Assembly (NCBI GenBank): GCA_015063125.1
Contig: SUTB01000001.1
Span: 682,001 to 746,000 of the forward strand
From: Thermoplasmata archaeon
Lineage (GTDB): Archaea > Thermoplasmatota > Thermoplasmata > Methanomassiliicoccales > Methanomethylophilaceae
DNA: 64,000 nt
Direction of reading: 5' to 3'
Part shown: positions 1 through 48,231 of the stretch, one piece after another
Layout of the letters: each line of letters begins with the position of its first letter
Numbering within the stretch: the stretch's first letter is position 1
Program-made: the position numbers and the translations under genes
The notes under the pieces: model-generated
What the model saw: only the letters and a program-made list of their open reading frames with translations
Told to the model about the DNA's origin: nothing
Database searches by the model: none

Positions 1-298
1 TGTCCAGGATCCCCTGCTGGAATCCGTTCACATCCGTGCCTGCGGTGACATAGCTGTCCATGCCCAGGCGCTTGACGATGGCGTCGACCGATTTCGAGAA
101 TCCGCTGATTACACCCATTCCTGACGTGATGGGAACGACTGCGACCCTGACCTTGGAGAAATCCACATCGTGATCCACTCCGGCACCCTCCAGCGCCAGC
201 TGCTTCACGGTCTTTCCGCACATCTTCATCAGCCTGGAATCCAGGTCCAGCTTGTCATCGGGTACGCCTTCAATCAGATCGGGTGTTAGCCTTGTCAT
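1..298 (-). CDS. pylD: PylD, pyrrolysine-forming dehydrogenase (partial, C-terminus outside window)
   Basis: The last step of pyrrolysine synthesis oxidises L-lysine-Ne-3R-methyl-D-ornithine, which then cyclises to pyrrolysine. Only about the first 99 residues are present; the gene runs off the left edge. The visible start is MTRLTPDLIEG, followed by a stretch containing ITSGMGVISGFSKSVDAI, which matches the conserved N-terminal region of PylD as I know it. The ATG shares its A with the TGA stop of pylC (TGATG), so translation is coupled. Identity rests on this region plus the pylS-pylB-pylC order, which is the canonical operon in this order of methanogens. Confidence 0.93.
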   Translation of the reverse strand, partial: MTRLTPDLIEGVPDDKLDLDSRLMKMCGKTVKQLALEGAGVDHDVDFSKVRVAVVPITSGMGVISGFSKSVDAIVKRLGMDSYVTAGTDVNGFQQGILD

Positions 299-1458
299 CA
301 GATCATCTCCGGGGTTCCGTCGAGGAACCTCTCAATAGAACATTCGTCAAGGATCCTCTGGATGCAGGCATCGCATTTCTGGTCTACCTCCTGCTCCGTC
401 CTTCCTTTGACGATGAGGGTGGCATGCCACTCCTCCTTACCGTTTTCATAATCGGAAATGGTGTTGTCAGCACCGAACAGTCCCTTCTCGAACCTCGGTT
501 TCACCACATGTCCGAACTCCTTCTCTCCGCTCGACCTCAGGACACCGTCCTTGAAGTACACGTGACGGTAGATTGAGCATCCTTCCTCGGCCTTCCTGTC
601 CTTGGGCTTGCCAAGGGCGGTGGTGGTCAGCTCCTCCAAGAGATTGACTCCTGTAGCCGCCTCGATGGCCGCGGGGGTCTGGCTGGGGATACGGGCATCG
701 ATCTCCAGCACGCGGAGTCCCTTGGGTGTGAGGATGGCTTCCACATCCATGAGTGCATTGAGCTTAATCGCTTCAGCAACATCCTTTCCGATATCCGCGA
801 ACTTCCTGCATTCCTCATCGGACATTATGTTGGGGTTGCAGCGGACCATCTTGCAGTCGTAGTTGGAATCGAGGCAGACCTCGGTGGTGACGTATGATTT
901 TGCGGTCTCACCGTTGCCGATCACCTCGATTGAGACGCTCTTGCCGTGGACGAACTCCTGGATGACCGGTTCGTCTCCCAGGCCCCTGACGATCTGCAGA
1001 CCGTTCTCGAGGTCGTGCTCGTTATGGGCTACCGTGACACCGATGCTTCCGCTCTGGGATGCTGGTTTCACAATAGCAGGATAGCCGCAGTACGGCCAGG
1101 GTTCCGGAAGAGGTACTCCAACCGACGCCATGATGTTGTTCGATTTGTTCTTCGAACTCGAGATGTTGTATGATGCTAGGTCGAACAGAAGAGGAGCATC
1201 CATACGTCCTTTGATCGAGTCCAGCGTTGTCAGGAGATCCATCTCCTCGCATGCGGGAATCACCGCATCGCATCCTTTGAAGACCTCCAACGCAGCTTCC
1301 GCATCCTTGGTGGGGTCTAAGACTATCGGTTCGTCGCACAATGACATTGCCGGGGCGGATGCCTTCCTATCCAGGACGACGGTCTCGTAACCGGCGGCCT
1401 TGGCCAGTAGAACCGCTTCCATGCCCTGAAGGGCCCCGCCGACTATTGCGATCCTCAT
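298..1458 (-). CDS. pylC: PylC, 3R-methyl-D-ornithine:L-lysine ligase
   Basis: This ATP-grasp ligase joins 3R-methyl-D-ornithine to the epsilon amine of lysine, the second step of pyrrolysine synthesis in the cytoplasm. The 386-residue product opens with a pre-ATP-grasp Rossmann segment (MRIAIVGGALQGMEAVLLAK). It continues with an ATP-grasp core (YPAIVKPASQSGSIGVTVA near residue 130, LMDVEAILTPKGLRVLEIDA near residue 240) holding the metal-binding acidic residues. The length is usual for the family. The start codon overlaps the pylB stop (TGATG) and the stop overlaps the pylD start, so the gene is translationally coupled on both sides. Confidence 0.96.
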   Translation of the reverse strand: MRIAIVGGALQGMEAVLLAKAAGYETVVLDRKASAPAMSLCDEPIVLDPTKDAEAALEVFKGCDAVIPACEEMDLLTTLDSIKGRMDAPLLFDLASYNISSSKNKSNNIMASVGVPLPEPWPYCGYPAIVKPASQSGSIGVTVAHNEHDLENGLQIVRGLGDEPVIQEFVHGKSVSIEVIGNGETAKSYVTTEVCLDSNYDCKMVRCNPNIMSDEECRKFADIGKDVAEAIKLNALMDVEAILTPKGLRVLEIDARIPSQTPAAIEAATGVNLLEELTTTALGKPKDRKAEEGCSIYRHVYFKDGVLRSSGEKEFGHVVKPRFEKGLFGADNTISDYENGKEEWHATLIVKGRTEQEVDQKCDACIQRILDECSIERFLDGTPEMI

Positions 1459-2513
1459 CAGGCCACTCTCTTCGGGCGGTGTGCGTTCAGGAATGATTGG
1501 TATTCCGCGGATGATGCGTGGTGGTGGCCCATGTCCTCGAGAAGCTCGAACACGTGCTCGACGGAACGGTTTCCGTTCTCGATGTCCAGCTCGTGCTGCG
1601 CCACACCAGCGAGATGCTTGCTCGGAGGAACTATGGACGTGACCACGTTGGCTCCGGCGTTGATCCTTGTCTTTAGACCTGCGATGCCTTCAACGTCGAG
1701 GCTGCAGGGGATGAGCTTGTCCTGGTTCAGGAGCCTCATGATGGCGATGGCCTTCAGCTCCTCGGTGGAATCGTAGGGCGTGAAATCCTGCATGGGCGTT
1801 CCCACCTGGGGGACGAACGTCATGGCGCGGACCTGACCGCATCCCAGGGAGCTCATCTCTGCGATGGTCTCCGCACGGTCCCTGACGTTCTCTCCGAGTC
1901 CGATCATCATACCGTCCTCGGCCAGCAGTCCTGCCTCCATGGCCCAGATCTTCTGGTTCCTGCGGTCGTCGAAGCTCTGGTTGAGCCTCAGTGATTTGAA
2001 AAGCTGCCTGTTGTAGGTCTCCTGGTAGCATGCGTACCAGTCAGCCCCGGCGTCGCGCACCTTCGCGAACATCTCCTGAGGCAGGGCTCCGGGGGAGGCC
2101 ATGATGTTGATGCCGACCTCGTCGTGCACAGCGGAGATTATCTCAAGGAGGTTCTTGTAACCGTCCTTATACATCTGGGGATCCTCGCCCATGGTGAGAT
2201 CAGAGAGGTTGATACCTGCATCCTTCAGGCTTGCCGACAGCTCCACGATCTCCTCCTTGGTCTTGCGGTATCTGTCGATGCCGTTGTTGGTGGTCCTGTA
2301 ATAGCAGAAAGTGCAGTTGTTCTTGCAGTAGGTTGAGAAGTAGACGAAACCGTATGTGAAGATCTTCTTGCCGAAGTGCTTGTCCCTCACCCTGCGTGCG
2401 GCTGAGAACAGGCAGTCCAGTTCGTCCTTGTCCGATACGGACATCAGCTGGAAGATCTCGCCTACAGATAGCTTTCCTTCCTTCTCTCCCTTTGCGACGA
2501 TGTCCGCTATCAT
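1458..2513 (-). CDS. pylB: PylB, lysine 2,3-mutase-type methylornithine synthase (radical SAM)
   Basis: PylB rearranges L-lysine to 3R-methyl-D-ornithine, the first committed step of pyrrolysine synthesis. The radical SAM cluster motif is visible as YCKNNCTFCYYR near residue 65 (CxxxCxxC), followed by a TIM-barrel sequence of normal length (351 residues). I chose the ATG at 2513 (MIADIVAKGEK). A TTG at 2522 that overlaps the pylS stop would add three residues and cannot be excluded. The stop overlaps the pylC start, so it is the middle of a coupled pylSBCD unit. Confidence 0.95.
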   Translation of the reverse strand: MIADIVAKGEKEGKLSVGEIFQLMSVSDKDELDCLFSAARRVRDKHFGKKIFTYGFVYFSTYCKNNCTFCYYRTTNNGIDRYRKTKEEIVELSASLKDAGINLSDLTMGEDPQMYKDGYKNLLEIISAVHDEVGINIMASPGALPQEMFAKVRDAGADWYACYQETYNRQLFKSLRLNQSFDDRRNQKIWAMEAGLLAEDGMMIGLGENVRDRAETIAEMSSLGCGQVRAMTFVPQVGTPMQDFTPYDSTEELKAIAIMRLLNQDKLIPCSLDVEGIAGLKTRINAGANVVTSIVPPSKHLAGVAQHELDIENGNRSVEHVFELLEDMGHHHASSAEYQSFLNAHRPKRVA

Positions 2514-2518
2514 GAATA

Positions 2519-3340
2519 TCAATCCAATTTGTAACCGTTCAGGTACGTGATGCTCTTACCGGTCTTCCTGGCGTTGCTCCTTCCTGTCTTCATCATGAGG
2601 AGCCTCTCCAGACCGAAACCGATTCCTGCCCAAGGCTCATGGACGTCATGCGCGGGGTCGAGTTTGTGGGGTCCGATGGCCCCGGATGCGACCTCCGTGC
2701 CGTTGATCTCAACGTCTAGTGTCTCTACGTAGACGTCGGATTCCTCGCGGCAGGTGGTGTACTCGAGTCCGACAGCGTCCATGATGTCGCCGATGTACAT
2801 CTTCAGATGCTCCATTGCATCTCCGTCCGGTCCCATCTCCACCAGGTTCAGCATCGTGAACTCCTCGAGGTGGGTGGAGCTCTTGGACTCCTTCCTGAAG
2901 CATGATCCGATCTCGAATATCTTCACGGGGCCTTTTGTGTGGTCCCTGAGCTCCCTCATGACCTTGTAGAGGTTCATGGCGTGCATGGGCCTAAGAGCTC
3001 TCTTGTCATCTATCCAGAAGACCTGCTTGTACAGCGGGTGGTCCTCGGTGATGGTCATCTTTGCCAATGCGGCCTTGGAAACGAAAATGGGGGTGTGCAC
3101 CTCGATGAAACCCCTGGCCTTGAGCTTCTCCCTGATCCTGTTCTCCAGATCGGTAAGGTCGTTGCGGGGGTTGGCGATGATGTCCTTCAGACCCTTGTCG
3201 TTTGCCGACTTCATCTTGGAGAACTGACTGGAGAACTCCTTGTCCCTCGCTGCGGCGTCATCGAACTCCGCGTCGGACCAATCGACGTCTCCATATTCCA
3301 TCAGATGCTGGATCTGAGAATCAGTGAACTTTACACCCAT
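2519..3340 (-). CDS. pylS: PylS, pyrrolysyl-tRNA synthetase, class lacking the N-terminal domain
   Basis: PylS charges tRNA-Pyl(CUA) with pyrrolysine. The 273-residue protein is only the class II catalytic domain. Visible elements are the motif 2 region (GSCFRKESKSSTHLEEFTML, holding the Arg that contacts ATP), the pocket Asn in FTMLNLVEMG, the mobile-loop Tyr in SDVYVETLDV and motif 3 (WAGIGFGLERLL). The separate tRNA-binding PylSn domain of Methanosarcina enzymes is absent and no pylSn gene is seen here, which matches the host-associated Methanomassiliicoccales class. An open frame extends upstream into the tRNA gene, but the ATG at 3340, 17 bases after the tRNA 3' end, gives the family N-terminus (MGVKFTDSQIQ). 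Confidence 0.97.
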   Translation of the reverse strand: MGVKFTDSQIQHLMEYGDVDWSDAEFDDAAARDKEFSSQFSKMKSANDKGLKDIIANPRNDLTDLENRIREKLKARGFIEVHTPIFVSKAALAKMTITEDHPLYKQVFWIDDKRALRPMHAMNLYKVMRELRDHTKGPVKIFEIGSCFRKESKSSTHLEEFTMLNLVEMGPDGDAMEHLKMYIGDIMDAVGLEYTTCREESDVYVETLDVEINGTEVASGAIGPHKLDPAHDVHEPWAGIGFGLERLLMMKTGRSNARKTGKSITYLNGYKLD

Positions 3341-3357
3341 GATATCTACCGTAATGA

Positions 3358-3428
3358 TGGCGAAAGGCCGGGGGGTCGAACCCCGCTTACAGGTTTTAGA
3401 GACCCGTTTGCTCGCCGGAGCGCCCTCC
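3358..3428 (-). tRNA. pylT: tRNA-Pyl (anticodon CUA)
   Basis: This 71-base gene includes an encoded CCA. On the minus strand it folds as a 7-bp acceptor (GGAGGGC with GCCTTTC, including G-U pairs) and a 4-bp D stem GCTC/GAGC with a 4-base loop. Then come a 6-bp anticodon stem ACGGGT/ACCTGT around loop CTCTAAA (anticodon CUA), a 3-base variable region AAG and a 5-bp T stem. There is no linker base between acceptor and D stem. The long anticodon stem and short D loop and variable region are hallmarks of tRNA-Pyl. It lies directly in front of pylS and is probably its first co-transcribed element. Confidence 0.97.
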
Positions 3429-7946: not shown

Positions 7947-9578
7947 ATGAGATATGGAATTGCATTGGACTTGGGTACAAGCGGATTCCGTTGTCAGGCA
8001 GTGGAGCTCGACTCCAAGAAGACTGTCGCGACCGCGATCACGGAACGCCACCCTATCCCCGGTATGAATGTCATCGATCACGTCAACTATGCTATCGAGG
8101 TAGGAGAAGACCTTGCGAACGGATTGATGGTCACCGCCGTCAACAACCTGTTCAAGGAGCTTGCAATCGACCTGTCCAAGGTCGAGACCGTCGCTGTTTG
8201 CGGTAACCCCTTCCAGCTGTCGCTCTTCCAGAACATCGAGATCAGGGACCTCGCCTACGCCGGAAAGAACAAGATCGAGGCTCTCGGAATCGTCTCACCC
8301 GACAGGGGCGGAGCGATCATCGATGCGTCCTCCATCGGACTCATCGGTATGCCCAACGCCAAAGTCATCATACCTCCCGCGGTCACACACGAGATCGGTG
8401 CTGATGCAATGGCCATGATGATGATGACCGACGTCCTCGAGGTCAACGAGCCTTGTCTGGTCGTCGACTACGGAACGAACGCCGAAATGGCTCTGGTCGT
8501 CAACGGAAACATCTACACAGGATCCGCCGCTGCAGGACCTGCCCTCGAGGGACAGCAGATCGAGAGGGGAATGCTCGCAGCACCCGGGGCACTCAGCGAG
8601 GTCATTATCACAGACAAGGGATGGAGATGCATCGTCCTCGACGACACCATCGCACCCCAGGAGGGAGACCTCATCGATCCCAAGACCGGAAAGGTCCTCG
8701 AAGAGGGACCCATGCACGGCAAGGCCGTCGGAATCACCGGAACAGGAGTCATCGCTGCTCTCGCCAACGGAATGAAGACAGGACTCATCCAGAGCTCCAA
8801 GATCATGACCGAGGACGGATTCCTCACACTCCAGGACGGAATCAGGATCAGCTCGGCAGATGTGGAGGAAGCCGGTAAGGCCATCGGAGCCCTGCGTTGC
8901 GGATTCCTCACTCTGATGGATGCCGCCGGACTGTGGGTAGACGATGTGAAGAAGGCATACATGTCCGGAGCATCTGGACTTTATGTGGATCCCATCAAGG
9001 CCATGGAGGTCGGAATGGTAACACCTGGTGCTACCGACATCACTCAGTTCGGAAACACCTCCATCGGAATGGCCAGGAAGATCATCTTCGGAGAGATCAC
9101 CATGGATGAGCTTAAGGCATTCGCCAAGAAGCTCCTGGCGCAGCACGTCATGTTCGCTACTTCGGACATCTTCAAGAACATCTACTCCATCGAGTACTCC
9201 TTCTGGTGCGGAGGAATGCCCTTCAGCGAGTACAACAACATGCTCGAAATGTACGGCATCAAGCCGTTGCCCAAGCTCCCCGATCCAGAGACTGTCGCCC
9301 ACAGGCGCCTCGCAGTCAGGGACCTGCCCGACACCGAGGACTGCAAGGTCCACATCATCACTGCAGGAACCGTTACCACCGGTAAACTGGACGGATGCAT
9401 AGACTGCCACAAGTGCATGAAGGAGTGTCCCGAGAAGGCACTCACCATTGTCACCAAGAACGGCGAGCAGTGGGCAGAGGTCAAGACGGACAAGTGCGGT
9501 GGAACCGCTTGCAGGAGATGCGAGAGGGTCTGCCCCAAGACCTGTCTGAACACCCTCAAACTCAGGCCTGTAGCCTGA
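7947..9578 (+). CDS. ramA: RamA, reductive activase of methylamine corrinoid proteins
   Basis: RamA uses ATP and two [4Fe-4S] clusters to reduce inactive Co(II) corrinoid proteins such as MtmC to the active Co(I) state. The 543-residue protein begins with an ASKHA-type ATPase signature (ALDLGTSGFRCQ) and has a second nucleotide-binding stretch (VVDYGTNAEMALV near residue 170). It ends with two ferredoxin-like cluster motifs, CIDCHKCMKECP and the cysteines in CGGTACRRCERVCP. The length and domain order are those of methanogen RamA. The ribosome site AGAGGG precedes the ATG, and a TATA-like TTTATATG lies near 7893, so it has its own promoter after the mtm terminator. Confidence 0.95.
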   Translation: MRYGIALDLGTSGFRCQAVELDSKKTVATAITERHPIPGMNVIDHVNYAIEVGEDLANGLMVTAVNNLFKELAIDLSKVETVAVCGNPFQLSLFQNIEIRDLAYAGKNKIEALGIVSPDRGGAIIDASSIGLIGMPNAKVIIPPAVTHEIGADAMAMMMMTDVLEVNEPCLVVDYGTNAEMALVVNGNIYTGSAAAGPALEGQQIERGMLAAPGALSEVIITDKGWRCIVLDDTIAPQEGDLIDPKTGKVLEEGPMHGKAVGITGTGVIAALANGMKTGLIQSSKIMTEDGFLTLQDGIRISSADVEEAGKAIGALRCGFLTLMDAAGLWVDDVKKAYMSGASGLYVDPIKAMEVGMVTPGATDITQFGNTSIGMARKIIFGEITMDELKAFAKKLLAQHVMFATSDIFKNIYSIEYSFWCGGMPFSEYNNMLEMYGIKPLPKLPDPETVAHRRLAVRDLPDTEDCKVHIITAGTVTTGKLDGCIDCHKCMKECPEKALTIVTKNGEQWAEVKTDKCGGTACRRCERVCPKTCLNTLKLRPVA

Positions 9579-9635: not shown

Positions 9636-10385
9636 TCAGTCGTTCTGATCGTAATCGTCACGGTTGCGGATTCCGAGACGGGCCATCATCTGCGCGAGCA
9701 TATCCTTCATCTCGTAGACGTCGCTCCTGACCATCGCGATCTGCGACTTCATGGAAGCGATGTCCTGCTCGTTCTTCATGACCTTGTCCTGGAATTCCTT
9801 ACTGACACCAGATGCGGTGGCGGAACGTGCACCCTCGGCTTTCAGGGCCTTGATCTTGTTGATGGTGTTGTCACGCCTGAACTGAAGCTTGTTCTTCTCC
9901 TCTGTCAGCCTGGAGAGCTCACCTGCATCGTCGTTCATGTCTGCCTCGACGATCTTCTCCTCCATAACCTTGAGGGATTCCGTCATGGACTTCACCATGT
10001 CGTTCAGCTCGTCTATGTCGTCCGTGTCCGGGACCTCATAGCCCTCATAGGCTTTCGCTGCCTCGGCGTTCCTTGCGTTGGTCTCGTCGATGACAAGCTT
10101 CCTGTAATCCCTTCCAACGGGCTCAAAGGAGACACCGATGGGGTAGACGCTTGCGTTGAGATTCCTGCTGGCGAGTGGAAGCTCTAGTCCTGCCTCGATG
10201 TACGAATCCTCGATCTCCTTTTTGCGGTCAAGGTACTGCCTGATGGTTCTATCGATCTCTTCCACACAGGACTTGTCCGCATCGGAAAGCTCGCCTTTCG
10301 CTAAGATGCAGTCCTTCTAGGCTGCAAGATGGTCGGCCTGCTTCCCAAGGAAACGGATCTCCCTTTCGTACTTGCTCGATGTCAT
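9636..10385 (-). CDS. Uncharacterised coiled-coil protein with in-frame TAG at codon 23 (candidate pyrrolysine protein)
   Basis: I do not recognise the family. From ATG 10385 the frame reads MTSSKYEREIRFLGKQADHL and then AA, meets TAG at 10319-10317 (codon 23), and continues in frame through KDCILAKGELSDADKSC and 209 further residues to TGA, 249 in all. A ribosome-site-like GAGGAAAGG and a TATA box (CTATATATAG near 10415) both point to ATG 10385, not to the GTG at 10265, the first possible start after the amber. The rest is highly charged, with heptad-like stretches (about residues 105-165 and 190-235) suggesting coiled coils. It converges on ramA in the methylamine neighbourhood. The alternative is a 22-codon leader followed by a shorter GTG-started protein; I consider amber decoding more likely. 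Confidence 0.75.
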
Positions 10386-10405
10386 TTCCTTTCCTCTGGA
10401 TTCAG

Positions 10406-10421
10406 TATAGTATGCATCTAT
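10406..10421 (-). promoter_or_regulatory. TATA box of the amber-containing coiled-coil gene
   Basis: On the minus strand CTATATATAG is the only strong promoter element before the gene. It lies about 25-35 bases upstream of the ATG at 10385 and more than 130 bases before the GTG at 10265, which supports the longer reading that contains the TAG. Confidence 0.55.
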
Positions 10422-10486
10422 ATATAGAAGTCCTACCTCATTCTTTTCTTCGAACCGCCATCGTTAATATGTCTGGATTGTGATTT

Positions 10487-10840
10487 ATGTGCATGGATGA
10501 ACTCTGCTCCAAGAGTGCCTATGACGATACCGATCTCCAGCTGAAGGTGGAGACTTTTCTGAAGGACAGGAGCATCGATGCCGTTACAGGGATCAGACGC
10601 ATGGGCAGAGAGAATCTCGTCGACTTCGTTGCCGAGATGGCGAACGGTCTAGGAATAGGGTGCTCGGTATATCCCGACACCTCTGGCAAGGATGCCGTCA
10701 TATTCTACAGCTGGGAGATCATGAAGGATCCTGCTGAATCGCTTCTCAGAGAAAGACCCGGATTGGATGTGCTGCACGGACAGGACCTATGCCATCAGGT
10801 GCCTGCATTAGTCAGATACAATAAGAAAAAGAGGGATTGA
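10487..10840 (+). CDS. Hypothetical protein, 117 residues
   Basis: Not recognised. It is a soluble, acidic, mixed alpha/beta sequence without signal peptide or membrane segment. Its middle (DFVAEMANGLGIGCSVYPDT) resembles a compact alpha/beta fold. Two in-frame starts lie two codons apart (10487 and 10493). A TATA-like TTAATATG at 10464-10471 would place transcription near 10493, making the second start a leaderless candidate. It stands alone between divergent and convergent neighbours; no operon partner suggests a role. Confidence 0.6.
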   Translation: MCMDELCSKSAYDDTDLQLKVETFLKDRSIDAVTGIRRMGRENLVDFVAEMANGLGIGCSVYPDTSGKDAVIFYSWEIMKDPAESLLRERPGLDVLHGQDLCHQVPALVRYNKKKRD

Positions 10841-13137: not shown

Positions 13138-13445
13138 AGCGTTAGGAGATGGAGGGTGGCCGACGGTAATCCGCAAGGATGGCTGAGGAAGTTCCCTCCT
13201 CCAAGGGCAAGATGGACAGGCGCAAGCCTGTACGGCGAGAGCCGTGGCAAGGGCCCAGAAACGACACAGACCCGGTAACAAGGATGATCCGTCAGACGGT
13301 GACGTTCCCGGGGATTTGGTGAAACGGCGACCCCCCATCGGAGCAAGTTCATACAACGGGGGAGACCTGCCCGGGACCCGTGGGTAGAACGCGAAGTTGA
13401 ATGCCACCTGAAACAGAAGGGGGGCTACTACCATCACCTGACGCT
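13138..13445 (+). ncRNA. rnpB: RNase P RNA
   Basis: This is the catalytic RNA that removes 5' leaders from pre-tRNAs. The ends pair as a 9-bp P1 helix (AGCGTTAGG at 13138 with CCTGACGCT ending at 13445). Conserved archaeal blocks are present: GAGGAAGTTCCCTCC near 13185, the central CCCAGAAACGACACAGACC segment near 13252, and near the 3' end ACAGAAGGGGGGCTAC (about 13413), the partner of the P4 helix. The length of 308 is in the normal range for type A archaeal RNAs. A weak TATA (TTTTTTACA near 13110) lies 25 bases upstream. Several small open frames over this gene are spurious. Confidence 0.95.
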
Positions 13446-47523: not shown

Positions 47524-48231
47524 TTACGTCCTATCCCTGCAGATGAACTTGATGGCCTCGTTGGCCAAGGTCATGCCGAAAACCCCGGGGACAGTCGGCA
47601 ACGATCCCAGGACGCTCTTCCCGTGGTCGTCCCTCTCCGACGGCTTCGCCACCGGGGGCTCCACCGAATAGACGGCAGTGATCTTCGATGTATCGCAATC
47701 CCTGAGCGATTTCCTGAGCTATGCCGCGATCGGGCAGACGCTGGTCTTCATGAGCGGTGATACTCTGACCGATTGCGTATCGATATGAAGTGCGGCACCC
47801 ATTGATGAAAATGTGACTATGCCTTTCTCGGAAGCATGCCTCAGAAGCGCGGTCTTGTTGCGAACGGTGTCGATCGCGTCGATCAGGATATCATAATCGC
47901 CTTGCAGTATGCCAGGGACGGTCTCCTCGGTGACCAGTGCATCTATCCCTTCTATCTCAATGTCCGGATTGATGGATCTGGCCCTCTCGCAGGCGGCCTC
48001 GACCTTCGATCTGCCGATCGTATCATGTGTGGCCAGGATCTGACGGTTCAGATTGCTGTCTGAGAACACATCGTGGTCCACGACCCTTATCCGGCCTATT
48101 CCTGCGCGTACTAGTCCTTCGAGGACATACCCTCCGACAGCTCCGCATCCGACTAGGATTACAGATGCATCCTTCAGCTTCTGTATGCCTTCCTCTCCCA
48201 GGATCAGTTCCGTCCTCTGTGACATGCTCAT
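47524..48231 (-). CDS. ThiF/TcdA-family E1-like adenylating protein with in-frame TAG at codon 171 (candidate pyrrolysine protein)
   Basis: The first 170 codons encode a ThiF-type fold: ATP loop VGCGAVGGYVLEGLVRAGIG (residues about 26-45), VVDHDVFSDSNLNRQILA and YDILIDAIDTVRNKTALL, as in tRNA threonylcarbamoyladenosine dehydratase TcdA. TAG lies at 47721-47719. The same frame then continues for 64 residues to TAA and is still clearly the family: LRKSLRDCDTSKITAVYSVE, then GSLPTVPGVFGMTLANEAIK. The amber sits in CPIAA-O-LRKSLR, aligned by eye with the DPLAKRLRERL segment of bacterial TcdA, so no residues are missing. Total 235 residues. TcdA forms cyclic t6A in tRNA; that activity is inferred here. 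It overlaps the TatD-like gene and has AGGAGG as ribosome site. It could instead be a recent nonsense mutation, but the intact tail argues for decoding. Confidence 0.82.

Follow-up and report, generated by a model that had tools for sequence, protein, structure and literature searches.

The window, by which we mean the whole stretch of 64,000 nucleotides that was analysed, carries pylC, pylB, pylS and a tRNA-Pyl gene within positions 298-3428. The three pyl genes were named by NCBIfam (pylS at 2519-3340, minus strand, TIGR02367), and the tRNA-Pyl, with the anticodon CTA (3358-3428, minus strand), was found by ARAGORN. A corrinoid protein gene is flanked by two genes with a TAG at codon 202; NCBIfam gave no match for these, and they were taken as mtmB from their context and sequence. 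Tail-to-tail with ramA (7947-9578, plus strand; TIGR04270, 684 bits, E=1e-205) lies the gene studied here (9636-10385, minus strand), which would encode a Pyl-containing helical-hairpin/coiled-coil protein of 249 amino acids when its TAG is counted as a residue. The initial annotation had placed this gene in an mtm/ramA block, and the placement held: ramA is convergent with it in the window and in 8/8 genomes of the clade called A below, and the link to methylamine genes is conserved. A gene of 117 amino acids (10487-10840, plus strand), for which Pfam and NCBIfam gave no match, is divergent from the Pyl gene and kept beside it in clade A. Further on, the archaeal RNase P RNA was found at 13144-13439 of the plus strand (Rfam RF00373, 202 bits).

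Reading frame and start of the gene

The frame from ATG 10385 to the TGA stop at 9636 is open save for a single TAG at codon 23 (10317-10319, minus strand). AGAGGAAAGG precedes the ATG, and the purine-rich ribosome site before it (10388-10398, minus strand) is kept in nearly all close relatives. A TATA-like box, CTTCTATATATAG (CTTCTATATATA, ~10430), lies at 10418-10430 of the minus strand, at an equal distance to the ATG in 6/7 clade-A orthologues, and this CTTCTATATATA promoter box is strongly conserved in clade A. Both elements had been proposed from the sequence of the window, together with a start at ATG 10385 and coding through the TAG to the end. The frame, the conservation of the N terminus and the selection on codons 1-22 agree with that proposal. 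The full-length homologues with a sense codon have an equivalent start, run uninterrupted through position 23 and have SKY[ED]RE[IL]RF in common; conservation ahead of the TAG extends to every full-length homologue, these included. Codons 1-22 are under purifying selection, with pS/pN of 0.73/0.17 in clade A and 0.60/0.10 in clade B, and coding conservation was found in one frame on both flanks of the TAG, the pattern that places a gene among those for Pyl proteins.

If the TAG were a stop, the gene would yield a peptide of 22 amino acids and a separate protein starting at GTG 10265 (codon 41), which is, as had been annotated, the next possible start after the amber codon. The presence of this GTG in our genome favours such a reading, but codon 41 encodes V, I, M or L among the relatives, so that the start is not conserved, the full-length sense-codon homologues are read through without a break and the upstream codons are selected at the protein level. 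We find this reading hardly credible. Homologues that all begin at the GTG, with no conserved coding region upstream, were named in the initial annotation as the pattern that would speak against reading through the TAG, and they were not seen. TAG23 is, to judge from these sequence comparisons, crossed by ribosomes that start at ATG 10385, and pyrrolysine is presumably inserted there. A recent report with proteomics reportedly proposes that every TAG codon of some archaea is read as pyrrolysine, and if so the insertion of Pyl23 may already be in its data.

Distribution of the family and a short Pyl-Cys paralogue

Homologues were found in 26/31 genomes of the genus, of which 29/31 have PylS, and weak matches were found in a second genus. 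The family is, as far as found, confined to a single genus of the Methanomassiliicoccales (most likely Methanomethylophilus); its distant kin in the second genus have sense codons. The TAG-type copies form one clade (support 98/96) and occur at two kinds of loci. In clade A (G000, G120, G003, G007, G009, G012, G013 and G024) the gene and ramA are tail-to-tail. In clade B (G001, G018, G025, G026 and G029) the gene directly precedes a ChlI/ChlD-like AAA+/VWA pair; ramA is a few genes off in 4/5, and genes for a corrinoid protein and a TAG-containing trimethylamine methyltransferase are present in 3/5, the ends of contigs limiting the rest. The ChlI-like gene was rejected as a fixed partner of the family everywhere, since there are several copies of it per genome.

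The sense-codon copies are found in a separate locus with Sel1-repeat and trypsin-like protease genes. They resemble the Pyl protein in their homologous hairpin and coiled coil and in their SKYERELRF N terminus, but they have Q, E, K, Y, A or G at position 23 and no cysteine at position 40. The copy in this locus is shortened to about 156 amino acids in M. alvus-like genomes; one paralogue of 156 amino acids (L087, 9659-10129, minus strand) is without the conserved N terminus.

A profile search with the TAG clade detected a diverged protein of about 142 amino acids in six genomes (G000, G120, G007, G009, G013 and G022), encoded divergently from the ChlI-like member of a ChlI/ChlD-like AAA+/VWA pair. 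This short paralogue has a TAG at codon 21-23, a cysteine exactly 21 residues further on and then [IVL]-x-x-I-D (in G120 according to a motif scan), and the Pyl...Cys-x3-I-D motif is present in 6/6 of these genomes. The profile alignment of the short and long forms matched the two Pyl positions with each other, and likewise the two Cys positions, with a probability of 98.2% and E=3.7e-14. In the genome that holds the window, the short form is encoded outside the window (L140, 6099-6527, plus strand), and by its size it is absent from the published list of Pyl proteins. Scanning for the motif O-[KR]-x(12-19)-C-[VILM]-x-x-I-D returned 16 distinct sequences, all of them members of the family.

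The Pyl protein had no match above the cut-off in Pfam or NCBIfam and no homology to MtmB, MtbB or MttB, and a Foldseek search gave nothing significant (best E=0.46). Matches to FlaC, SMC and Uds1 were set aside as weak coiled-coil noise. A match in another genus of the same taxonomic family (G148) was also set aside; it is exosome-subunit-like by sequence and has no TAG. No relative of the family was found in the viral contigs searched. Table 7 of Borrel 2014, the list of M. alvus Pyl proteins, has no entry of matching size and description, and in the literature searched there was no paper describing the family and no mention of the coupling with a cysteine.

Retention of TAG23 and its co-variation with Cys40

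The homologue search at the TAG site that the initial annotation had called for gave a TAG in the same column in 11/13 TAG-type orthologous sequences (10 species), a GAG in the other two, G012 and G013, and various sense codons in the paralogues of the Sel1-repeat locus. Both G012 and G013 keep PylS and the ramA-side locus, and G013 also has a TAG-containing mtmB. Neutral simulations, whose branch lengths came from 4-fold degenerate sites (total 12.3, a noisy value since it is near saturation), kept the TAG in 11 tips in 0/20,000 runs, with P = 0.004 at a quarter of the rate. Column 23 showed 2 changes, compared with a mean of 2.7 per column. Pyl23 thus seems to behave like an average constrained residue, and TAG23 is, on these counts, retained by selection; a neutral codon would not have lasted. 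The orthologue of G012 (L003) has an in-frame TAA at codon 224, near the C terminus, and the gene may be decaying or misassembled there (a truncation or an assembly error).

The loss of the TAG was accompanied by a change at residue 40 (TGT codon, 10266-10268, minus strand). This residue is Cys in the 11 TAG carriers and Arg in G012 and G013 only, so that the substitutions of Pyl23 by Glu and of Cys40 by Arg occur together in these two genomes and nowhere else. Among the 56 columns invariant in the 11 TAG carriers, only two were changed in G012 (23 and 40) and three in G013 (23, 40 and 206). With columns 23 and 40 masked, a joint clade of G012 and G013 was rejected by the AU test (p=0.0002), which makes the two losses independent. 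Gene conversion or recombination between them as a source of the common Glu and Arg was also rejected, as there was no excess of local identity. Twelve columns have exactly two deviating species, and positions 23 and 40 are the only non-sister pair seen twice. By our estimate, the chance of such a coincidence, given two independent losses and a pairing noticed post hoc, is about 0.14 from the two-deviator columns alone, and it is of the order of 0.001-0.01, again estimated post hoc, when it is also required that the replacements be identical and that the two positions face each other. The cysteine is kept with Pyl despite an intervening loop that varies by -3 to +4 residues. When both paralogues are pooled, Cys is present in 17/17 TAG-bearing sequences, and the two TAG-less ones are without it. 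G013 has Glu-Arg in its long form and keeps Pyl-Cys in its short paralogue.

The possibility was considered that drift, in a genome where TAG is reassigned, gave rise to an ordinary sense codon for Pyl, that the residue has no special role and that Cys40 co-varies by coincidence. Pyl codons do turn over in these archaea. In the window, a ThiF-family (TcdA-like) gene (47524-48231, minus strand) has an in-frame TAG171 in this genome only, with none in the same-species G120 or in the other orthologues found; here a conserved enzyme gene has newly acquired a Pyl codon, at the level of the strain. The genes of an unnamed family, F16 (L087, 6280-7041; L091, 12636-13397; L092, 5632-6345; L093, 10779-11540) are a natural comparator, with a TAG at codon 54 and/or 77, sites that shift among four close relatives, and none in more distant genomes. 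A neutral origin was also argued for the Pyl of Thg1 (Heinemann 2009, as cited in PMC4153887). Against drift, however, are the simulations, which exclude neutral retention of the TAG in 11/13 sequences, the presence of the same Pyl and Cys in a diverged paralogue and the loss of both together on two occasions. Drift is an unlikely explanation here, with a small chance of being correct. The putative Pyl proteins already listed for Ca. M. alvus (Table 7) and Thg1 likewise have a TAG inside a non-methyltransferase gene of a Pyl-using archaeon, but theirs is sporadic or argued to be neutral, with relatives that have no TAG, whereas the TAG of the hairpin gene has been kept in 10 species and in both paralogues, and another residue co-varies with it.

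Predicted hairpin and possible role of pyrrolysine

A shallow AlphaFold2 model, made from 5 sequences and with Lys in place of Pyl, predicted a helical hairpin of residues 3-28 and 35-65 with a turn at 29-34 (10191-10379, minus strand). Its mean pLDDT was 71.5 and its pTM 0.32, and local confidence was good, with pLDDT blocks of 87-92 for residues 11-60. The centre of the modelled turn, 31.5, is the midpoint of residues 23 and 40, which are equidistant from it. Hydrophobic heptads run through residues 10, 13, 17, 20, 24 and 27 and through 41, 44, 48, 51, 55 and 58, and residues 23 and 40 would then both be at g positions. In antiparallel coiled coils, g positions are a usual place of salt bridges. 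Glu-Arg would be, according to the model, a natural replacement for Pyl-Cys, and the side chains of Pyl23 and Cys40 may be in contact.

The explanation that we prefer, to which we give a probability of roughly 60%, is that Pyl23 is an ordinary sense residue, kept for the pairing of its side chain with Cys40 on the other arm of the hairpin, and that Glu and Arg can stand in for the two. Translation would begin at ATG 10385, with TAG23 decoded as pyrrolysine as is ordinary for the host. The N-terminal hairpin would be antiparallel, with Pyl23 on its first helix and Cys40 on its second. The pair would most likely be a clasp that keeps the hairpin together. It could do so by packing, or the thiol might add reversibly to the pyrroline imine. 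Such an adduct is possible because the imine carbon of Pyl is electrophilic and takes up amines, sulfite and other nucleophiles (PMC9842639, PMC2933860); packing would explain the data just as well. The reading frame, the conservation, the co-variation, the second paralogue with the motif and the linkage to ramA and to the AAA+/VWA pair are the part of this account that is drawn from sequence; the insertion of Pyl, the contact between the two side chains and their chemistry are what we infer. The gene neighbourhood suggests a possible role in the upkeep of the methylamine/corrinoid machinery, by reactivation of corrinoid proteins or by AAA+/VWA remodelling.

The same reactivity of the imine, and the setting of the genes in methylamine clusters with ramA or ChlI/ChlD-like genes as neighbours, would also suit a reactive site. 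There the imine would bind an amine, ammonia or a sulfur nucleophile, with Cys40 as a competitor or a helper, and the hairpin would pass on the state of methylamine or redox to RamA or to the AAA+/VWA partner. Both losses led to a Glu-Arg charge pair, however, which points to structure rather than to chemistry, and no ligand pocket is evident; we regard this reading as improbable.

The initial annotation had suggested that so early an amber codon makes the protein a sensor or switch that couples its output to the supply of pyrrolysine. In its favour, both paralogues have their TAG at codon 21-23, and they are located in methylamine loci, with the sense-codon paralogue elsewhere. But the amber codon is not retained wherever the gene and the Pyl machinery coexist, as it became GAG in the two Pyl-competent species, and a switch based on a stop codon has no need of a coupled change at residue 40. 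The supply of Pyl also looks constitutive, because only 1.6% of the genes of M. alvus, which is probably the host organism, end with TAG and its 16 further Pyl genes include that of a core lipid enzyme, digeranylgeranylglyceryl phosphate synthase, from which Borrel et al. inferred constitutive use (PMC4153887). The early position is explained by the hairpin alone, since the hairpin lies at the N terminus. No consensus structure of a cis RNA element was found near or after the UAG (z=-0.35). A sensor or switch for pyrrolysine status is thus very unlikely.

The pairing of Pyl23 with Cys40 can be compared with known uses of rare residues. MtmB, MtbB and MttB likewise have an in-frame TAG kept by selection, a constrained Pyl and the same gene neighbourhoods, but they are catalytic TIM barrels whose active site contains the Pyl, whereas the protein described here is a helical hairpin that does not look enzymatic and in which Pyl has a Cys as partner. 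The selenocysteine-cysteine pairs of selenoproteins also join a rare encoded residue to a cysteine, an analogy only, with a different chemistry and no homology.

Outside the methylamine methyltransferases, Pyl has so far been regarded as sporadic or neutral. The Pyl codon described here combines retention far beyond neutral expectation, recurrence in a paralogue and co-variation with one cysteine, and would be, within the literature searched, the first sign of a selected job for Pyl outside the methylamine enzymes, in a methane-making gut archaeon. A bolder proposal, to which we assign a low probability, is that the Pyl ring acts as a reversible covalent clasp on the cysteine, opened by methylamine, ammonia or sulfur nucleophiles, and so reports the state of substrate or redox to RamA or the AAA+/VWA pair; if true, this would be a second, non-methyltransferase biological job for pyrrolysine. 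The question of why pyrrolysine is used becomes testable in a small protein, and our results suggest a motif of the Pyl-thiol or Pyl-packing type, which other proteins may share and which may be engineered into them.
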